DNA of 6,832 nucleotides, from contig JAQSXU010000292.1 in the NCBI GenBank assembly GCA_029256485.1, forward strand, positions 1 to 6,832. The letters run 5' to 3'. The first letter of the stretch is position 1; every line of letters starts with the position of its first letter. Of this stretch, positions 379-6,832 are shown in pieces. The notes under the pieces are model-generated. The model did no database searches, was not told the DNA's origin, and worked only from the letters and a program-made list of their open reading frames with translations. This stretch comes from Clostridiaceae bacterium. Lineage in GTDB: Bacteria; Bacillota_A; Clostridia; Clostridiales; Clostridiaceae. A program made the position numbers and the translations under genes.

Positions 379-1401
379 CTATGCAGTTATTATATTTATT
401 ATTAATAATTCCATTGATATTTTGCTGTTAATTGTTGAGCTTTTTAATTTAATTTCACAATCTAAACATAAATCTACCGCATTTTCTATTTGCTTTATAG
501 TAAACCTTTTGCTCTGTGATATAAGTTTTTCACAAATATATGGATTTAATTTCAATTCTTTAATAAGTGTATTTTTATTCTTTTTTGCTTCTAGACCAAG
601 GATTATATTTAAGAGCAGTTTAAACTGCCTTTCAACCATATAAAGTATATATGGAATCTTCTCACCCTTATATATGAGTTCATTCATTATATTTATAGCT
701 TTGTCAGCTTTTTTTTGTGCTAAAAAATCTACCATATCAAAGATATCTTCATCACTTTTCTGCGGAAACATATCCTCTATATCTTGTTTTGTAATGTCTT
801 TATTCATCGTGTAACAACAAAGCTTTTCAACTTCATTTTCAATTATACCCATGTTGTTATCCAATTTATTGCAAAATAATCTTAATTCTATTTTCCCTAT
901 TTCCTTATTATTATCATCGAAATATTGCTTTACCTTTTGTTCTAGGTTAGCACCTCTTATTTTATCCGCCTTTACAATACATGACTTTCTGTCAAGTTTA
1001 AATAATTTTTTAGATGGTTTTTCTCTTTTATTATCAAAAACATAATACATAATCAAAAGTGTATAAGGAGAAATCTTATCTATATATGAATTTATATTTT
1101 CAAAAAGTTTATTACTTTTGCTATCCCCATTATCAGATAAAAAATTAGCTCTATACAACACCACTACTTTTTTATCACCCATAAATGGTAGTGTTTCACA
1201 TGCATTTATGAGGCCGTCAACTTCAAAATTTGTACCATCAATTTTAATATAATTTAGCTGCTTAAAGTCATCTGATATAGTTTTCTTTACAATTTCATTT
1301 ATATAATCTTTTATTAAAGTTTCATCCTGACCACAAAACACAATGCACTTCTTTTCTAATCCCTTTTTAAATTCTGATTCAAATTGCAATAAGTCCAGCA
1401 C
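379..1401 (-). CDS. holA: DNA polymerase III subunit delta
   Basis: Delta subunit of the clamp loader, which opens the beta sliding clamp so it can be placed on primed DNA; cytoplasmic. The 340-residue length is normal for Firmicute HolA (YqeN). Visible landmarks are the degenerate nucleotide-fold start IVFCGQDETLI (about 20-30), the family signature ETLPFMGDKKVVVL (69-82), a middle region with DIFDMVDFLAQKKADKAI, the collar-domain motif PYILYMVERQFKLLL, and the C-terminal IKLKSSTINSKISMELLI. The start is GTG, with AGGATG about 10 bases upstream; an ATG overlapping that site is out of frame. It begins 14 bases after the comEC stop, so it is probably co-transcribed and last in the operon. The comEC-holA pairing is conserved in Firmicutes and supports the call. 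Confidence 0.95.
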   Translation of the reverse strand: MLDLLQFESEFKKGLEKKCIVFCGQDETLIKDYINEIVKKTISDDFKQLNYIKIDGTNFEVDGLINACETLPFMGDKKVVVLYRANFLSDNGDSKSNKLFENINSYIDKISPYTLLIMYYVFDNKREKPSKKLFKLDRKSCIVKADKIRGANLEQKVKQYFDDNNKEIGKIELRLFCNKLDNNMGIIENEVEKLCCYTMNKDITKQDIEDMFPQKSDEDIFDMVDFLAQKKADKAINIMNELIYKGEKIPYILYMVERQFKLLLNIILGLEAKKNKNTLIKELKLNPYICEKLISQSKRFTIKQIENAVDLCLDCEIKLKSSTINSKISMELLIINIITA

Positions 1402-1415
1402 AATACCACATCCTA

Positions 1416-3095
1416 TTAATAAATTCTATATGCTTTAGTAAATAATAATTTGTAGTGAATAGATTTGCTTTTTATACTATTCTCATATACTAATGGCAAT
1501 TTTATTATATCATAATAGCTGTTATTTTTAATCATTACATATTTATCGGATATGCTAACCTGCAAGCTGGGATTTAAATACAAATTCCTTTTTCCCTTTG
1601 GATTAGTAATAACCCTATTGGCTTTTATATTATTTTTTATTTCAATTATTTCCTTACCTAAAGTTTCATCATAATTACAAATTAAAATTCTTTCATTTAT
1701 ATAAGTTATAGAAACCAAGCTATATCCATTTCCCGAATAAAAATCTACAGAAGGCACAGGAGGAAATTTATAAATAAGTATTGTAAATAACAACACTAGT
1801 GGGAAATATCTGATTTTATGAAAATTATGTTTATATAGCACATAGGATAAATATATGCCAATAAACCCTATGCCGTCAATGAAGTCCAAACTAATTAATG
1901 GAGCACCCGTTTTCATTAAAAAATATACTGCCCCATCTATGCATAGAAATGTATACTTTATAATATATGTTAAAAAATTAAATACAATATTTATATTATA
2001 AAACAGTAAACTTATATTTCCTAAAACCACCACAGTGGAATACAAAGGCAGCAGAAAAATATTACCTAATATAAATGTTATGCCTAAATTTCTTATAGTA
2101 AAGGCGATACATGGATATGAAAATAATTGTGCACTAAGTGTTAAACTTAAGGATTCTGCTAGTTTTTCCGGTAAAATATATAATAGCCTTTTTATCTTTT
2201 TATAGTAAAGTAAAATCCCTAATGTTGATAAATAAGAAAGTATAAATCCAATGTCAAAAATATAATATGGCTTTATCAACAAAATAAGTATAGCAGACAT
2301 GCATAAAGAGGATAGTGAATCATAATTTTTATAAACTTTTTTTGAAAATTTTAAAATTAGTATCATAATGAAAGATCTTATAGCTGAAGCTTTACACCCG
2401 GTAAATATGACATATATTACAGATAAAAAAGTGGAAATATAAATTCCGCTTATCTTTTCAAGAACTAAATATATTAAAGATAAATGCATGCCGGAAACAC
2501 TCACCGCATGAATAACTCCAAGTCTTTGAAACTCAAGTTTTTCACTTTGTGACAAATATTTTGTTTCCCCAAAGCACAATGACATTGCGAGAGATGCATA
2601 TTTTTCTCCCAGCAGGTTATTATAATGGCTATATAAGCTTTCTTTAAATTTATTTAAGGAAAACAAGTATGTATTTTTTATAGTTTTATAATCATTAAGC
2701 TTGTATTCACCAATTTCTCCAAAGGAATAATTGATTTTATGAGTAAACTTTCCACTCACCATAATTTTATTTCCGGCTTGTAATTCCTTTGTATTTCCAG
2801 TTAAAGCTATTTTTCTTCCCCGAAAGTCACCTGTTGTTTTTCCATAAGCTTTTTCCGTAACAGTTATTTCTGCGCTATTACTTATAGAAATATTAAAATA
2901 ATTATAAAAGCTGGCGAAACCAATAATAAAAAAAATTATTATGATAATAAAATTTATTCTTTCTTCATAAATAAAAATAATGAGCAAAAAAGATGCAGCC
3001 AATGCTGCACCTAATAAAACGTTATTTATAAAAATTGAGGAGGACAGGCATCCTAATAAGATTGCAATACAATAATAAACCAACGGTCTTTTCAC
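1416..3095 (-). CDS. comEC: ComEC/Rec2-type DNA uptake channel lacking an intact nuclease domain
   Basis: Polytopic membrane protein of the ComEC/Rec2 family, which forms the channel that brings single-stranded DNA across the membrane in natural transformation. Two N-terminal membrane helices (about 4-40 and 48-66) precede an OB-like domain (about 75-140, DUF4131 type). The competence domain (about 165-440) has HAVSVSGMH (196-204; family form HLLxISGLH), ASAIRSFIM (236-244), DIGFILSYLSTLGI (281-294) and AQLFSYP (322-328). The protein is 559 residues, against roughly 700-800 for full-length ComEC. The tail (about 447-559) is a remnant of the metallo-beta-lactamase domain: FYSGNGYSL sits where FLDVGQGDSxL is expected, and no HxHxDH motif follows. 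The start is GTG, overlapping the stop of the upstream gene as GTGA, which indicates translational coupling. Family membership is firm; transformation activity is not shown. Confidence 0.92.
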   Translation of the reverse strand: MKRPLVYYCIAILLGCLSSSIFINNVLLGAALAASFLLIIFIYEERINFIIIIIFFIIGFASFYNYFNISISNSAEITVTEKAYGKTTGDFRGRKIALTGNTKELQAGNKIMVSGKFTHKINYSFGEIGEYKLNDYKTIKNTYLFSLNKFKESLYSHYNNLLGEKYASLAMSLCFGETKYLSQSEKLEFQRLGVIHAVSVSGMHLSLIYLVLEKISGIYISTFLSVIYVIFTGCKASAIRSFIMILILKFSKKVYKNYDSLSSLCMSAILILLIKPYYIFDIGFILSYLSTLGILLYYKKIKRLLYILPEKLAESLSLTLSAQLFSYPCIAFTIRNLGITFILGNIFLLPLYSTVVVLGNISLLFYNINIVFNFLTYIIKYTFLCIDGAVYFLMKTGAPLISLDFIDGIGFIGIYLSYVLYKHNFHKIRYFPLVLLFTILIYKFPPVPSVDFYSGNGYSLVSITYINERILICNYDETLGKEIIEIKNNIKANRVITNPKGKRNLYLNPSLQVSISDKYVMIKNNSYYDIIKLPLVYENSIKSKSIHYKLLFTKAYRIY

Positions 3096-3352
3096 TGTCT
3101 TAAAGCTTTCTCCATTTTATCCTGTTGTTGAACCTTAACATTAATCTTTATATTGTGAATTGATGCATCATAATCAATGTCTTCAACAAAAGGTATAACA
3201 TTCCTTCCTCTTGAATAAAAGTAGTTATTTGCAATCTCCTCAGCCGCAGTATTATTAATTTCGTCATAGTTAACAAAGTATTTATCATCAGGTATGTTTA
3301 AATATACTGTATTACTGCCCTTAATAACTGTTTCAAAGACATCCTCAAACAT
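3092..3352 (-). CDS. Small hypothetical protein coupled to comEC
   Basis: I do not recognise this family. The product is an 86-residue soluble protein, with no signal peptide, membrane helix or cysteine. Its N-terminal half is rich in Asp, Glu and Asn (PDDKYFVNYDEINNTAAEE). A central stretch, NNYFYSRGRNVIPFVEDIDYD, is followed by a probable beta strand (IHNIKINVKV) and a basic/Gln-rich end (QQQDKMEKALRQ). An in-frame ATG at 3370 would add six residues, but those codons contain the Shine-Dalgarno sequence GGAGGTGGG, so the ATG at 3352 is preferred. Its TGA overlaps the GTG of comEC by four bases, so the two are probably translated in a coupled way and may be made in similar amounts. It lies 46 bases after the P-type ATPase homologue. 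A regulator or accessory factor for its membrane neighbours is possible but unsupported. Confidence 0.8.
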   Translation of the reverse strand: MFEDVFETVIKGSNTVYLNIPDDKYFVNYDEINNTAAEEIANNYFYSRGRNVIPFVEDIDYDASIHNIKINVKVQQQDKMEKALRQ

Positions 3353-3360
3353 TATTTTAC

Positions 3361-3368
3361 CCACCTCC
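3361..3368 (-). promoter_or_regulatory. Ribosome binding site that decides the start of the 86-residue gene
   Basis: On the minus strand this reads GGAGGTGG and lies 8 to 11 bases before the ATG at 3352. The alternative upstream ATG (3370) overlaps this site and has no Shine-Dalgarno sequence of its own. A TATAAT hexamer sits just upstream (3372-3377), but without a good -35, so a separate promoter is only a weak possibility. Confidence 0.7.
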
Positions 3369-3398
3369 ATAATTATAGTTTATCCATAATATATTGCT

Positions 3399-5819
3399 TT
3401 AATCACTGGTTTTTATGGACAACTTTAAAAGCATTAAAGCACAAAATAAGTTTATTCCAATGAAATCATAATAATTCAATATATTTGAGTTAATTCCAAA
3501 AAATTTTATAATCACAAATATGCCTAAAAATATGGTTGTACATATTATCGCTGCTGTTATGCCATTAAAGAATGATTTCCAAAAACCTTCTTTAAAAAAA
3601 TCTTTGTTAAACTCCTGTTGAAAATGATAATTTTCCACTTTCTCGAAATTACAAATAATGAAAAATGAAAAAATTGATATTGTAATTAAGTTTACAAATA
3701 ATATCCCATAGAAGGTTAAATATATGTCAAAATTTAAAAAGCTCTTTATTATAAAATAACTTGTTTGAAAAATAACACAGCTGAACAGATAAATTAAAAT
3801 ATTTTTTATATTGATAATTACCTTTTTTGAACTTTCTATTATTGATATTATTTTTTCTAAACTTGTTTCCTCTAAATATACATCGGAAAAATTTCTAAGA
3901 ATACTGCTGCTACCATAACCAATCCCTATATCAGCTATCATCAGTGAGGTAAAATCTATAAGTTTACCTATTGCCATGGCAAATATTCTTCCTTGATTTC
4001 TATAAAATTCACAAAGCTTTTCCCTATTAATAGGACTAATTCTTGAAAAAATATTAATTCTATCTGCAATTCTATTAAATTCCTCATCTGAGGTATTGTC
4101 TATTTCAATTCCAGATAAAATTTGATTTTGTGATTTTATTAAATCAATTTTCTTTCCTGAATAAAAAGCTGTAACTCTATTTTCATCTGTAATAATAACA
4201 GGCCTTATATTATTCATTTTCAACATTTTAATATTTTCTTCTGTATCCTCACAAATTGGATTGTTAAAGGCTATTAATCCCGAAAATACTAAATTACTTT
4301 CTATATTTTCCTTTTCACTTGGTTCGTAATTAAAGTTTCTATAAGCCAGAGCAATAACATTTAAGCTATTACCTGAGAAAATTATGTCTGTGTCCTTAAT
4401 TACCTTTTTATCTTCTTCTGTTATTTCTCTTTCTATACCATTTTTATTAATTTGAGTGCATTTATCAATTAAAAAGTCCACTGACCCTTTAACATTTGCC
4501 CTGAAATTACTTTCAAATTTATTTACAGTTGTCATTATCCTTCTATGAGAATCAAAAGGTATTTGAAAAATTCTTCTCTGCTCTCTTTCCAGCTGTCTCT
4601 TCTTAATATTCATTTTATCCCCATACTTAACTAATGAGATTTCAATTGAGTCATCTTTATAATTTGTAATTCCTTTAGATGTAAAAACAGAATCATTACA
4701 TAATACTCCAATGCTGATCAATCGATTTAAGGCAACCACATCTACCTCATTTAAATCCATATTATTGGGTTCTACTATTTCATTGGGAATGTACATTTTT
4801 TCAATTATCATTTCATTCTTAGAAAAAAAGCCATACTTATCTGTACATAGCAAATCAATTTTAGACAGATTTTCAACTATAGAAAGATTTTTTAATATTA
4901 CTCCTCTTTTTTTGAATTTTTCTAAGATATAAGCTGATACTACATTCAACATAAAACTACTTGAAAATGGGGTGCACAAAATAATAATTAATGCTAAAGA
5001 TTTTAATGCTGAATTTAGATTATTTGTATATATTAAAGATGGAATTGTAAAAACCAATGCCATCATTGTTATTACTAAAGTAAATTGATTAACTGTCTTC
5101 TTAAAATATTTATTAATAAAATTACTGCTCATATTCTCTTTATATATATATGATATTATTCTTGCAATTTGTGTTTCCATTCCAGTAGCTATGACTACAC
5201 CTGTAGCATCACCTTCTACAACGGTGGATGCCCTAAACAAAATATTTCCCATTTCAGAAATTGAAATTTCCTCTTCCTCAATTCTGGCAGAAAATTTATC
5301 AACAATTGCTTTTTCACCAGTTATTGAGGACTCCTTTACCTTTAAATTGTTACATTCAAGAATTCTGATATCTGCTGGCACCATTTCATTACTTTGCAGC
5401 AAAACTATGTCGCCTTTAACCAGTTCCTCACAAGGGATTCTTATTATATGTCCTGCTCTAACAACTGTTGTGATTATCTTATTTAAGTTATTTAATTCCT
5501 GAAGTTTTCTATTCTCCCTGGCTGCATAAGATAATGTAACAGCTAAATGAAAAATATAATAAAAAACTAAAATTTCTGCTGGTATAAATGTTTCTATAAC
5601 AAAAAGCAACCCTATTGTAATGAAAACTAAAATGCTCCAAACCTGCTTAACTTCATCTATAAGTACCCACATAAGCTTCTTAACCTTAGGGCTGTTTAAG
5701 CTGTTATTTCCGTCTTTCTTCCTGTATTCTTCAACTTGTGCTAAACTTAGTCCATTATTTATATCTGTATTCAATTTTTTTAATACTTCAACCCATGTAA
5801 TATTATGCCATGCGGTCAT
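3399..5819 (-). CDS. P2-type cation ATPase homologue with degenerate catalytic motifs (pseudo-ATPase)
   Basis: Full-frame membrane protein of 806 residues with the architecture of Ca2+-type P-type ATPases. It has a cation-ATPase N-terminal domain (4-41, ending GLSLAQVEEYRKKDGNNSL), membrane pairs near 60-99 and 246-297, and an actuator domain (LVKGDIVLLQSNEMVPADIR at 133-152, TGE at 167-169). The P/N domains keep KGS (444-446) and FDSHRR (422-427). About four C-terminal helices follow, two fewer than usual. The signatures for pumping are broken. DKTGT is DKYGF (327-331, aspartate kept). TGDGVND is AIGKLID (616-622), followed by an intact ADIGIGYG. PEGL is TPFSS (283-287). TGDN is TDEN (544-547). 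The M6 NLVTD is NLITI (710-714), and M5 lacks the Asn/Glu ligands. The start has GGAGG seven bases upstream. There is no stop or frameshift, so this looks like a retained non-pumping protein, possibly a sensor or scaffold. First gene of the probable operon with comEC-holA. Confidence 0.85.
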   Translation of the reverse strand: MTAWHNITWVEVLKKLNTDINNGLSLAQVEEYRKKDGNNSLNSPKVKKLMWVLIDEVKQVWSILVFITIGLLFVIETFIPAEILVFYYIFHLAVTLSYAARENRKLQELNNLNKIITTVVRAGHIIRIPCEELVKGDIVLLQSNEMVPADIRILECNNLKVKESSITGEKAIVDKFSARIEEEEISISEMGNILFRASTVVEGDATGVVIATGMETQIARIISYIYKENMSSNFINKYFKKTVNQFTLVITMMALVFTIPSLIYTNNLNSALKSLALIIILCTPFSSSFMLNVVSAYILEKFKKRGVILKNLSIVENLSKIDLLCTDKYGFFSKNEMIIEKMYIPNEIVEPNNMDLNEVDVVALNRLISIGVLCNDSVFTSKGITNYKDDSIEISLVKYGDKMNIKKRQLEREQRRIFQIPFDSHRRIMTTVNKFESNFRANVKGSVDFLIDKCTQINKNGIEREITEEDKKVIKDTDIIFSGNSLNVIALAYRNFNYEPSEKENIESNLVFSGLIAFNNPICEDTEENIKMLKMNNIRPVIITDENRVTAFYSGKKIDLIKSQNQILSGIEIDNTSDEEFNRIADRINIFSRISPINREKLCEFYRNQGRIFAMAIGKLIDFTSLMIADIGIGYGSSSILRNFSDVYLEETSLEKIISIIESSKKVIINIKNILIYLFSCVIFQTSYFIIKSFLNFDIYLTFYGILFVNLITISIFSFFIICNFEKVENYHFQQEFNKDFFKEGFWKSFFNGITAAIICTTIFLGIFVIIKFFGINSNILNYYDFIGINLFCALMLLKLSIKTSD

Positions 5820-5826
5820 TTTATTA

Positions 5827-5831
5827 CCTCC
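5827..5831 (-). promoter_or_regulatory. Ribosome binding site of the P-type ATPase homologue
   Basis: GGAGG on the minus strand, seven bases before the ATG at 5817-5819. A strong, well-spaced site shows that translation initiation is preserved even though the protein has lost its catalytic motifs. Confidence 0.85.
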
Positions 5832-5878: not shown

Positions 5879-5893
5879 ATACAATTAAATATT

Positions 5894-5921
5894 CGTATAA
5901 AAATAATTCTTCTTTAATCAA
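5894..5921 (-). promoter_or_regulatory. Possible promoter of the ATPase homologue operon
   Basis: On the minus strand, TTGATT (5916-5921) and TATACG (5894-5899) are 16 bases apart, a plausible but imperfect sigma-A promoter. It would give a leader of roughly 65-70 bases containing the interleaved inverted repeats at 5836-5878. The region is very AT-rich, so chance matches are likely. Confidence 0.3.
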
Positions 5922-5972: not shown

Positions 5973-6018
5973 ATAAAAAATAAAAGCATTTCCCTTATGG
6001 AAACACCTTTAATGCTTT
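5973..6018 (-). terminator. Terminator of the 47-residue membrane protein gene
   Basis: Read on the minus strand, the arms AAAGCATT (6018-6011) and AATGCTTT (5990-5983) enclose an inner TTTCC/GGAAA hairpin and are followed by a T-rich run (TATTTTTTAT, 5982-5973). It lies about 60 bases beyond the stop of the small gene and before the leader of the ATPase homologue, and separates the two transcripts. The T-rich tract is only on the minus-strand side. Confidence 0.6.
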
Positions 6019-6076: not shown

Positions 6077-6220
6077 TCAATTACTACTATAAATGCTATA
6101 AGCCTCTAAGGCAACTGTTATTAAAAATATCACCACTGAAAGAATAATAAGCCTTTTCCTTGGAGACATTATTTTAACTTTATCAAAAAGGTTAACTTTT
6201 TTCAAATTGTTATCTGTCAT
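6077..6220 (-). CDS. Small single-pass membrane protein (47 residues)
   Basis: A short gene supported by its signals. The ATG follows GGGGGAA at good spacing, a promoter-like TTGAAG-17-TAGAAT lies upstream, and a hairpin terminator lies downstream. The product begins MTDNNLKKVNLFDKVKIM, followed by a basic SPRKR (19-23), one hydrophobic helix (about 24-40, LIILSVVIFLITVALEA) and a short polar end (YSIYSSN). The positive-inside rule puts the N-terminus in the cytoplasm. There is no signal peptidase site, lipobox or cysteine. I do not recognise the family. Such proteins often bind and adjust larger membrane proteins; the neighbouring membrane genes make that conceivable, but nothing in the sequence shows a partner. 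It could also be a sporulation-type or stress-type small membrane protein. Confidence 0.7.
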   Translation of the reverse strand: MTDNNLKKVNLFDKVKIMSPRKRLIILSVVIFLITVALEAYSIYSSN

Positions 6221-6337: not shown

Positions 6338-6371
6338 GAATATAACATTAAAAATACTTTCTTAATTTGTT

Positions 6372-6378
6372 AGGGGTG
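6372..6378 (+). promoter_or_regulatory. Ribosome binding site that decides the SemiSWEET start
   Basis: AGGGGTG lies nine bases before the ATG at 6388-6390. It rules in favour of the 89-residue product over a 96-residue form starting at an upstream TTG that has no Shine-Dalgarno sequence. Confidence 0.75.
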
Positions 6379-6387
6379 AATATTAAT

Positions 6388-6657
6388 ATGTTTTTTAAAA
6401 TTTTGGGGATGGTTGCAGCAATACTTACCACATCTTCATTTGTTCCTCAGGCTATAAAAACAATTAAAACAAAAGATACATCAGGCATATCATTTTTTAT
6501 GTATCTTTTATTTACAATTGGTGTGCTGCTATGGGTAATTTACGGTATATATATAAAAGATAATGCAATTATTATTGCTAATTTAATAACCTTTATCTTT
6601 GCTTTTATCATATTAAAATATAAAATAGCAAATATAAAAAAAGATAAGAAATTATAA
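6388..6657 (+). CDS. SemiSWEET-family sugar transporter (PQ-loop, MtN3 type)
   Basis: Half-size member of the SWEET/MtN3 family, which moves mono- or disaccharides down their gradient across the cytoplasmic membrane as a homodimer of three-helix bundles. The 89-residue product has the family length. Helix 1 ends in the PQ motif (FVPQAIKTIKTKDTSGIS, Pro20-Gln21). Helix 2 (about 34-54) carries Trp49, and helix 3 (about 59-77) carries Asn65; this Trp/Asn pair at such spacing is the sugar-binding signature of SemiSWEETs. A basic tail (KYKIANIKKDKKL) faces the cytoplasm. The ATG at 6388 is chosen because AGGGGTG lies nine bases upstream; a TTG at 6367 would place that site inside the gene. It is transcribed alone, with a strong terminator after it. 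The substrate cannot be told from sequence. Confidence 0.88.
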   Translation: MFFKILGMVAAILTTSSFVPQAIKTIKTKDTSGISFFMYLLFTIGVLLWVIYGIYIKDNAIIIANLITFIFAFIILKYKIANIKKDKKL

Positions 6658-6741: not shown

Positions 6742-6832
6742 TGGCGGGAGTATGTGGGAATCGAACCCACCCGTCGTGGTCTTAGCACGGCAGCACAGTT
6801 TTGAAGACTGGCAGGCACACCAGCACCTATCT
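6742..6832 (-). tRNA. selC: tRNA-Sec (anticodon UCA), 5' end outside the window
   Basis: Selenocysteine tRNA, which is charged with Ser, converted by SelA and delivered by SelB at UGA codons. On the minus strand the anticodon loop CTTCAAA (6806-6800) holds TCA and is the same as in E. coli selC. The D arm has a 6-base-pair stem, AGGTGC/GTGCCT, with a four-base loop (6828-6813), longer than in ordinary tRNAs. A long variable arm (CCGTG...CACG) follows. The T arm is GTGGG/CCCAC with loop TTCGATT (6770-6754). The 3' strand ATACTCCC, discriminator G and encoded CCA end at 6742. The 5' acceptor strand lies beyond position 6832, so the 8-base-pair acceptor stem cannot be checked. The outermost anticodon-stem pair is a C-U mismatch. 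A UGA suppressor tRNA is less likely given the D-stem and variable arm. Confidence 0.88.

Follow-up and report, generated by a model that had tools for sequence, protein, structure and literature searches.

The window analysed in this study, a stretch of 6,832 nucleotides of Clostridiaceae DNA, encodes an 806-residue protein that belongs to a Clostridiaceae family of P2-type (Ca2+-ATPase-derived) pumps predicted from sequence to be catalytically dead. The catalytic residues appear to be lost across the clade, and the clade is under purifying selection, a combination that characterizes a pseudoenzyme. The protein is rather probably a pseudo-pump of the membrane, expressed in motile cells and working through ligand or partner binding by its N domain.

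Domains and motifs of the window protein and its family

The ATPase ORF starts with ATG and has no internal stop, and a GGAGG ribosome-binding site precedes it, so that the intact 806-codon frame described in an earlier note on this DNA stands. The gene is probably the first in its operon, as a terminator-like hairpin lies upstream. The features of the window are the following:

3399..5819, minus strand: pseudo-P2-type ATPase gene, 806 aa (ORF, family matches, predicted fold)
5827..5831, minus strand: ribosome-binding site GGAGG (sequence reading)
4284..4784, minus strand: N domain, residues 346-512 (boundaries set by us), containing all 17 gained-constraint sites
4839..4841, minus strand: codon of D327 (SERCA D351), retained but within DKYGF
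3954..3974, minus strand: AIGKLID replacing TGDGVND, with D622 the sole Asp retained
3678..3680, minus strand: I714 replacing the ion-binding M6 Asp
5890..5916, minus strand: putative SigD-type promoter TAAAG-N14-TACGAATA (TAAA-N17-CGA), 97 nt upstream of the ATG
5981..6011, minus strand: terminator-like hairpin upstream of the ATPase gene (consensus scan only)
3092..3370, minus strand: 92-aa ORF between the ATPase gene and comEC, overlapping comEC by 4 nt
1416..3095, minus strand: comEC, the usual downstream neighbour (Pfam PF03772)
379..1401, minus strand: holA, DNA polymerase III delta (Pfam)
6077-6220, minus strand: candidate ORF of 47 aa that includes a hydrophobic stretch, located between the pseudo-pump and SemiSWEET genes
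6367-6657, plus strand: SemiSWEET sugar transporter (NF037968, 106.9 bits)
6746-6832, minus strand: partial tRNA-Sec (Rfam RF01852, 50.4 bits)

The tRNA-Sec, because of which the host organism probably uses selenocysteine, was the only Rfam match at gathering scores when the window alone was scanned, and no riboswitch was found there.

Pfam matches at E ≤ 0.001 were obtained in the window protein for PF00690, PF00122 and PF13246, with none at this threshold for the HAD hydrolase (PF00702) and C-terminal (PF00689) domains. The alignment with Listeria LMCA1 covers residues 21-775 (E 2e-82). The AlphaFold2 model (mean pLDDT 85, pTM 0.79) has a P-type fold over its full length, with eight long helices at the positions expected for membrane helices, and the fold is predicted to be intact because the model aligns with the SERCA E2 chain 8owa over 797 residues (rmsd 4.2 Å). 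As there are eight helices and this alignment stops near SERCA residue 929, M9 and M10 (in our helix naming) appear to be missing.

The motif losses listed in the earlier note proved real in alignments with both LMCA1 and the family: DKTGT is DKYGF, TGDGVND is AIGKLID, PEGL is TPFSS, TGD is TDE (within TDEN) and the M6 Asp is Ile. The window protein retains D327, TGE, K328, G330, K444 (SERCA K515) and D622 (SERCA D707), while SERCA D703, N706 and T353 are all replaced. In addition, it has N487 where 25 of 25 canonical rows have Arg; we equate this position with R560 of SERCA, a residue of the ATP site.

A protein search in which 7988 candidates were scored found 784 relatives, and the best 120 of these were taken up; where named, they are mostly called Ca2+- or cation-transporting ATPases. 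Canonical motifs were present in 10 of these best 120 (P0107 and P0112-P0120), and the remaining 110, window protein included, have degenerate motifs wherever aligned. For instance, P0002-P0004, with 85-88% identity to the window protein, carry the same motifs with small changes. At least 75 family loci were recovered by a scan with two exact peptide patterns and one genome per species, which is not a census; they belong mostly to Clostridium or related Clostridiaceae genera, with some MAGs bearing a higher-rank name and one Caproiciproducens. Degenerate motifs are found at the same locus across Clostridium and are not strain-specific.

Motif retention was counted in 97 aligned family rows, some of them possibly near-copies and with the true family row of L027 excluded. 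The residues D351, T353 and D703 (SERCA numbers) never occur together, and D351 and D703 are combined in two rows. The Asp at D351 is lost in 45 of the 97 rows, T353 in 95, D703 in 81 and N706 in 95, whereas K352 is retained in 94 and the D707 position is D in 85 and E in 11. The loss appears selective, since K352 and D707 stay while T353, D703 and N706 go. The M6 Asp position is occupied by I, L, V or M in 81 rows. Loss of the catalytic, Mg2+ and ion-site residues is therefore, as far as these rows represent it, predicted to be family-wide. The earlier note had allowed for residual phosphoryl chemistry at D327, which is unlikely because D703, N706 and T353 are replaced in the window protein and 45 of the 97 rows are without the Asp. 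Its proposal of a nucleotide sensor fares partly better: the K515 position is K or R in 83 rows and that of F487 is F or Y in 72, which favours nucleotide binding, but Arg remains at the R560 position in only three, against 25 of 25 canonical rows.

In a quick tree without bootstrap, built from 54 family rows and 23 canonical rows, all 54 family rows group in a single clade, separate from the canonical Ca2+-ATPases (SH-aLRT 100). The L027 row of this tree is a canonical paralogue, identical to L123, and lies outside the family clade. Canonical pumps with DKTGT and GDGVND are also kept in the four genomes checked.

The window protein shares its fold, domain order, TGE and A domain with the P2A Ca2+-ATPases (LMCA1 of Listeria, SERCA and the PMR1/SPCA type). 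Among solved structures, LMCA1 chains are closest to it in sequence, and TIGR01522 is its best NCBIfam model, although its score (279.2 bits) is far below the cut-off of 798.3. Unlike these pumps, it has no DKTGT, TGDGVND, PEGL, M6 Asp or R560, and appears to be without M9-M10. Replacement of the M6 Asp by Ile is a likeness to the P6 ATPases (CtpE), which retain DKTGT. According to one review, PEGL is retained in P6 pumps as well (PMC10654040). The window protein differs from P6 ATPases in having neither motif and, judged by such features, falls outside both the P2A and the P6 pumps as these are defined.

Purifying selection and the shift of constraint

The median dN/dS of the pseudo-pump was 0.17 (range 0.087-0.308) in 26 pairs with dS < 1.5, a value that covers family pairs and not the own branch of the window gene, and the pairs are not independent because they share genomes. 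The corresponding values were 0.165 for comEC (25 pairs), 0.089 for holA (18) and 0.045 for gpr (20). A dN/dS well below 1 points to strong purifying selection. Together with the degenerate motifs shared at the same locus, it bears out the view of the earlier note that selection maintains a pseudo-enzyme here and that the gene is not dying.

The distribution of constraint along the protein differs from that of active pumps. Among pairs 35-45% identical overall, identity in the N domain was 0.49 in the family vs 0.29 in canonical pumps, whereas it was 0.23 vs 0.42 in M3-M4 and 0.20 vs 0.34 in M5-M8. Conservation in the family proteins is lowest in the ion-path helices, which makes an ion sensor, another role put forward in the earlier note, less likely. 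Sites were considered to have gained constraint when conserved in at least 85% of the family and at most 50% of active pumps, and all 17 such sites are located in the N domain (R366, I370, Y/F439, R440, A441, T455, E463, E465, S482, F496, Y498, P500, E504, N505, I506, S508 and N509). Constraint has been lost at 41 sites that are near-invariant in 25 active rows: 17 belong to the P domain and 16 to membrane parts, with 13 of the 41 in M3-M8, and the R560 position is also among the 41. The conserved parts of the family are thus the cytoplasmic A and N domains, with newly conserved sites in the N domain only, as far as alignments indicate. Loss along the ion path combined with gain in the N domain would fit a function based in the head, involving a new contact or ligand, and not transport.

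Putative promoter, flagellin and the comEC locus

The sequence TAAA-N17-CGA, which we read as a putative SigD-type promoter, was detected upstream of the pseudo-pump in 28 of 73 loci, window included, and its N18 form in eight, with every other spacing from N11 to N26 occurring in 0-3 of the 73 upstreams; 45 of the 73 are without the N17 form. At the 54 loci without an intact pseudo-pump, TAAA-N17-CGA was found ahead of neither comEC nor the 92-aa ORF. A strict form, TAAAG-N14-[TA]ACGA, was present in 21 of the 73 upstreams vs 0.08 in shuffles, and at the same loci it was not found upstream of comEC, holA, gpr, lepA, spoIIP, comEA, spoIIAA, dacF or rluD. A relaxed motif was found in 32 of the 73 upstreams vs 1.06, compared with 1 of 22 comEA upstreams vs 0.42. 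These counts are not independent because the loci are related. A sequence of the SigD type therefore seems to precede the pseudo-pump in many genomes.

Genome-wide, the strict motif was no commoner than a reversed control (17 vs 19 matches in 10 genomes, 0-3 per genome) and was rejected as a means of defining a regulon; one of its matches precedes an ORF read by eye as MotA. The classical TAAAG-N15-CCGATA was likewise set aside, with 24 matches vs 32 in the reversed control of 10 genomes, three of the 24 lying directly ahead of flagellins. Among the flagellin upstreams of ten genomes, five of 12 have a layout of the TAAA-N17-CGA type vs 0.5 expected. A scan for spore-sigma promoters gave no enrichment upstream of the pseudo-pump, and the positive controls gpr and spoVAC were missed likewise.

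For comparison, a study of C. difficile lists 11 SigD promoters, five of them mapped by RACE-PCR, with 15-18 bases from TAAA to CG (PMC3865298). By our count from this source, the 17-nt spacing is common to CD0226, flgM and CD3527 (RACE-mapped) and flgK (its Table 3), and fliC has the spacing of 18 that corresponds to the N18 form of the pseudo-pump (PMC3865298). The sites differ in that the base after CGA is variable and TACGA is common upstream of the pseudo-pump, while the C. difficile sites given there read nCGA (PMC3865298).

Flagellin was detected in 175 of 206 Clostridiaceae genomes. Among 138 loci, it was present in 83 and absent in one of those with the pseudo-pump, and present in 30 and absent in 24 of those without it (Fisher p 6e-11); without the eight outgroup loci, the counts were 83 and one vs 27 and 19 (p 2e-9). 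Gene states for this table and for the tree test were set by hand from locus maps. The table leaves out L049 and L062, which could be assigned to no genome, as well as L077, L104, L210, L220 and L221, in which the gene state is ambiguous. In L220 (clear) and L104 (weak) an end of the pseudo-pump lies at a contig edge and flagellin is present, and L077 has neither a pseudo-pump trace nor flagellin; adding these three would not weaken the table. Genomes without flagellin are thus almost always without the pseudo-pump at the comEC locus in the sampled assemblies. The gene occurs in a single flagellin-negative genome, L070; as this is a MAG, the assembly may have missed the flagellin. A TIGR00426 marker (a ComEA-type helix-hairpin-helix model) was uninformative, as it matches 205 of the 206 genomes.

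In a test of independent pairs on a comEC-holA-gpr tree (135 loci, 200 random pairings), the mean was 5.7 pairs in the same direction, 0.0 opposite and 9.3 without difference, with a median p of 0.03 (range 0.008-0.375) and one opposite pair in a few pairings; the reverse test gave p 0.0625-0.125. The pseudo-pump changes in presence at least 17 times on the tree, and 30 flagellated genomes are without it at the comEC locus. The link with flagellin is therefore modest once phylogeny is counted, and suggestive rather than proven.

The gene order around the pseudo-pump is fixed on one side. In 72 of the 75 loci comEC lies downstream, directly or past one or two small ORFs, the exceptions being L034 and L062, which end at a contig edge, and L072, where holA is next. 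Further downstream, gpr and spoIIP appear in most locus maps. The upstream neighbour is variable (spoVA, comEA, DUF503, MORN and others), with a gene of the spoVAC/E cluster directly upstream in 19 loci. Pfam was run on a single member of each cluster to check the names gpr, spoIIP, spoVAD, spoVAC/E, DUF503 and MORN; one member each of sigF, comEA, dacF and spoIIAA had sigma, HHH/SLBB, S11 peptidase and STAS content, respectively, and inspection by eye supplied the names of spoIIAB, lepA, hemW, rluD and others. The 92-aa ORF gave no Pfam or NCBIfam match. Its homologue was found in 18 of the 75 loci, and stays beside comEC without the pseudo-pump in L105, L106, L108, L109, L111, L192, L201, L203 and L204.

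A comEC gene was found in 200 of the 206 genomes, and a family match lies within 4 kb of it in at least 104 of the 149 genomes with a comEC match listed. The comEC regions of most of the remaining genomes were fetched; some carry the pseudo-pump and many are without it. An intact gene is missing from 54 sampled comEC loci, where absence refers to the comEC locus and not to the whole genome. Layouts seen at such loci are spoVA followed directly by comEC, or the 92-aa ORF with comEC, and remnants of 521 aa and of about 30 codons persist in L089 and L204, respectively. A component of the competence system would be kept whenever comEC is kept, which is not what is seen at the comEC loci, and because of these 54 loci the pseudo-pump is predicted to be optional for ComEC.

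Two other arrangements were observed. In genome G005 (L072 and L135) the pseudo-pump adjoins holA with no comEC between them and comEC is on another contig, which could be a real move or a binning fault of the MAG. In eight Clostridiaceae genomes (L211-L218, an outgroup by our reading), an ORF of 208-223 aa encoding a sigma factor occupies the place that the pseudo-pump has elsewhere and, with longest-ORF starts, overlaps the start of comEC; the two tested, from L211 and L213, resemble SigF/SigG yet score far under the SigF cut-off.

Proposed function and its rivals

The fixed neighbourhood of comEC points to a different partner from that expected if the protein serves motility. As a DNA-uptake accessory, the pseudo-pump would be co-transcribed with comEC and dock on or gate ComEC, and the SigD-type promoter could drive both genes. 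The conserved downstream position of comEC beside a widely varying upstream neighbour and the nearly equal dN/dS of the two genes would agree with this role. However, gene order is rigid on the far side of comEC as well, which leaves adjacency by itself a weak argument, and with 54 comEC loci lacking an intact gene and one pseudo-pump, that of L072, adjoining holA in a genome whose comEC is on another contig, we consider such an accessory doubtful. A part in sporulation, in which a relic calcium pump would aid the handling of Ca-dipicolinate with SpoVA, is very improbable. The spoVAC/E gene upstream in 19 loci and the downstream gpr and spoIIP could be cited for it, but unrelated genes lie upstream in other lineages, and in L082, L084, L087, L095, L097, L100, L103, L110 and L113 sigF, spoVA and comEC are kept while the pseudo-pump is absent.

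An unorthodox but active enzyme or transporter could be imagined from the D327, TGE, K328, K444 and D622 of the window protein and from the family-wide retention of K352 (94 of 97 rows) and of D or E at D707 (96 of 97). It is very improbable in view of the losses of Asp, T353, D703 and N706 counted above, of Arg at the R560 position in 94 rows and of the weak conservation of the ion-path helices. Hardly credible is a functionless gene in slow decay: the repeated changes of presence on the tree and the remnants in L089 and L204 would be expected of one, but all 26 pairs, which represent the family as a whole, have dN/dS of 0.087-0.308, new conserved sites have arisen in the N domain, the match is stop-free in most family rows listed and the promoter sequence is conserved.

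The favoured reading therefore remains that of a pseudo-pump acting through its N domain in motile cells. That the gene tends to come and go with flagella suggests that swimming cells have reused a dead pump as a scaffold or switch. Expressed together with the motility regulon, the protein would serve as a membrane-resident scaffold or conformational switch. A ligand or protein may bind to the N domain via a remodelled patch (around R440, E463 and YRNFNYEPS..ENIESNLV, 493-511), and the A/P/N headpiece could relay this binding without ATP turnover or transport. Candidate partners or ligands are ComEC, flagellar or pilus parts, and nucleotide. A more specific version is tentative: a P-type ATPase may have evolved into a membrane receptor or switch under SigD control, in which the N-domain site is new and the pump motions signal, possibly linking motility to DNA uptake via the comEC operon.

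Pseudoenzymes have long been familiar from kinases and proteases, and the pseudo-pump resembles pseudokinases and others in conserving the fold without the catalytic residues and in having a new conserved surface. A description of a P-type ATPase pseudoenzyme family was not found in searches of an open-licence library, most subscription journals being outside its reach. The relatives are mostly named Ca2+- or cation-transporting ATPases, so that, as regards this gene, many Clostridium genomes would carry an erroneous annotation and their transport models would err as well. A direct route to its function is offered by the link with flagella and by the SigD-type promoter. A conserved pseudo-pump family would show that the large moving machine of a P-type ATPase may be preserved solely for how it moves or for its surfaces.
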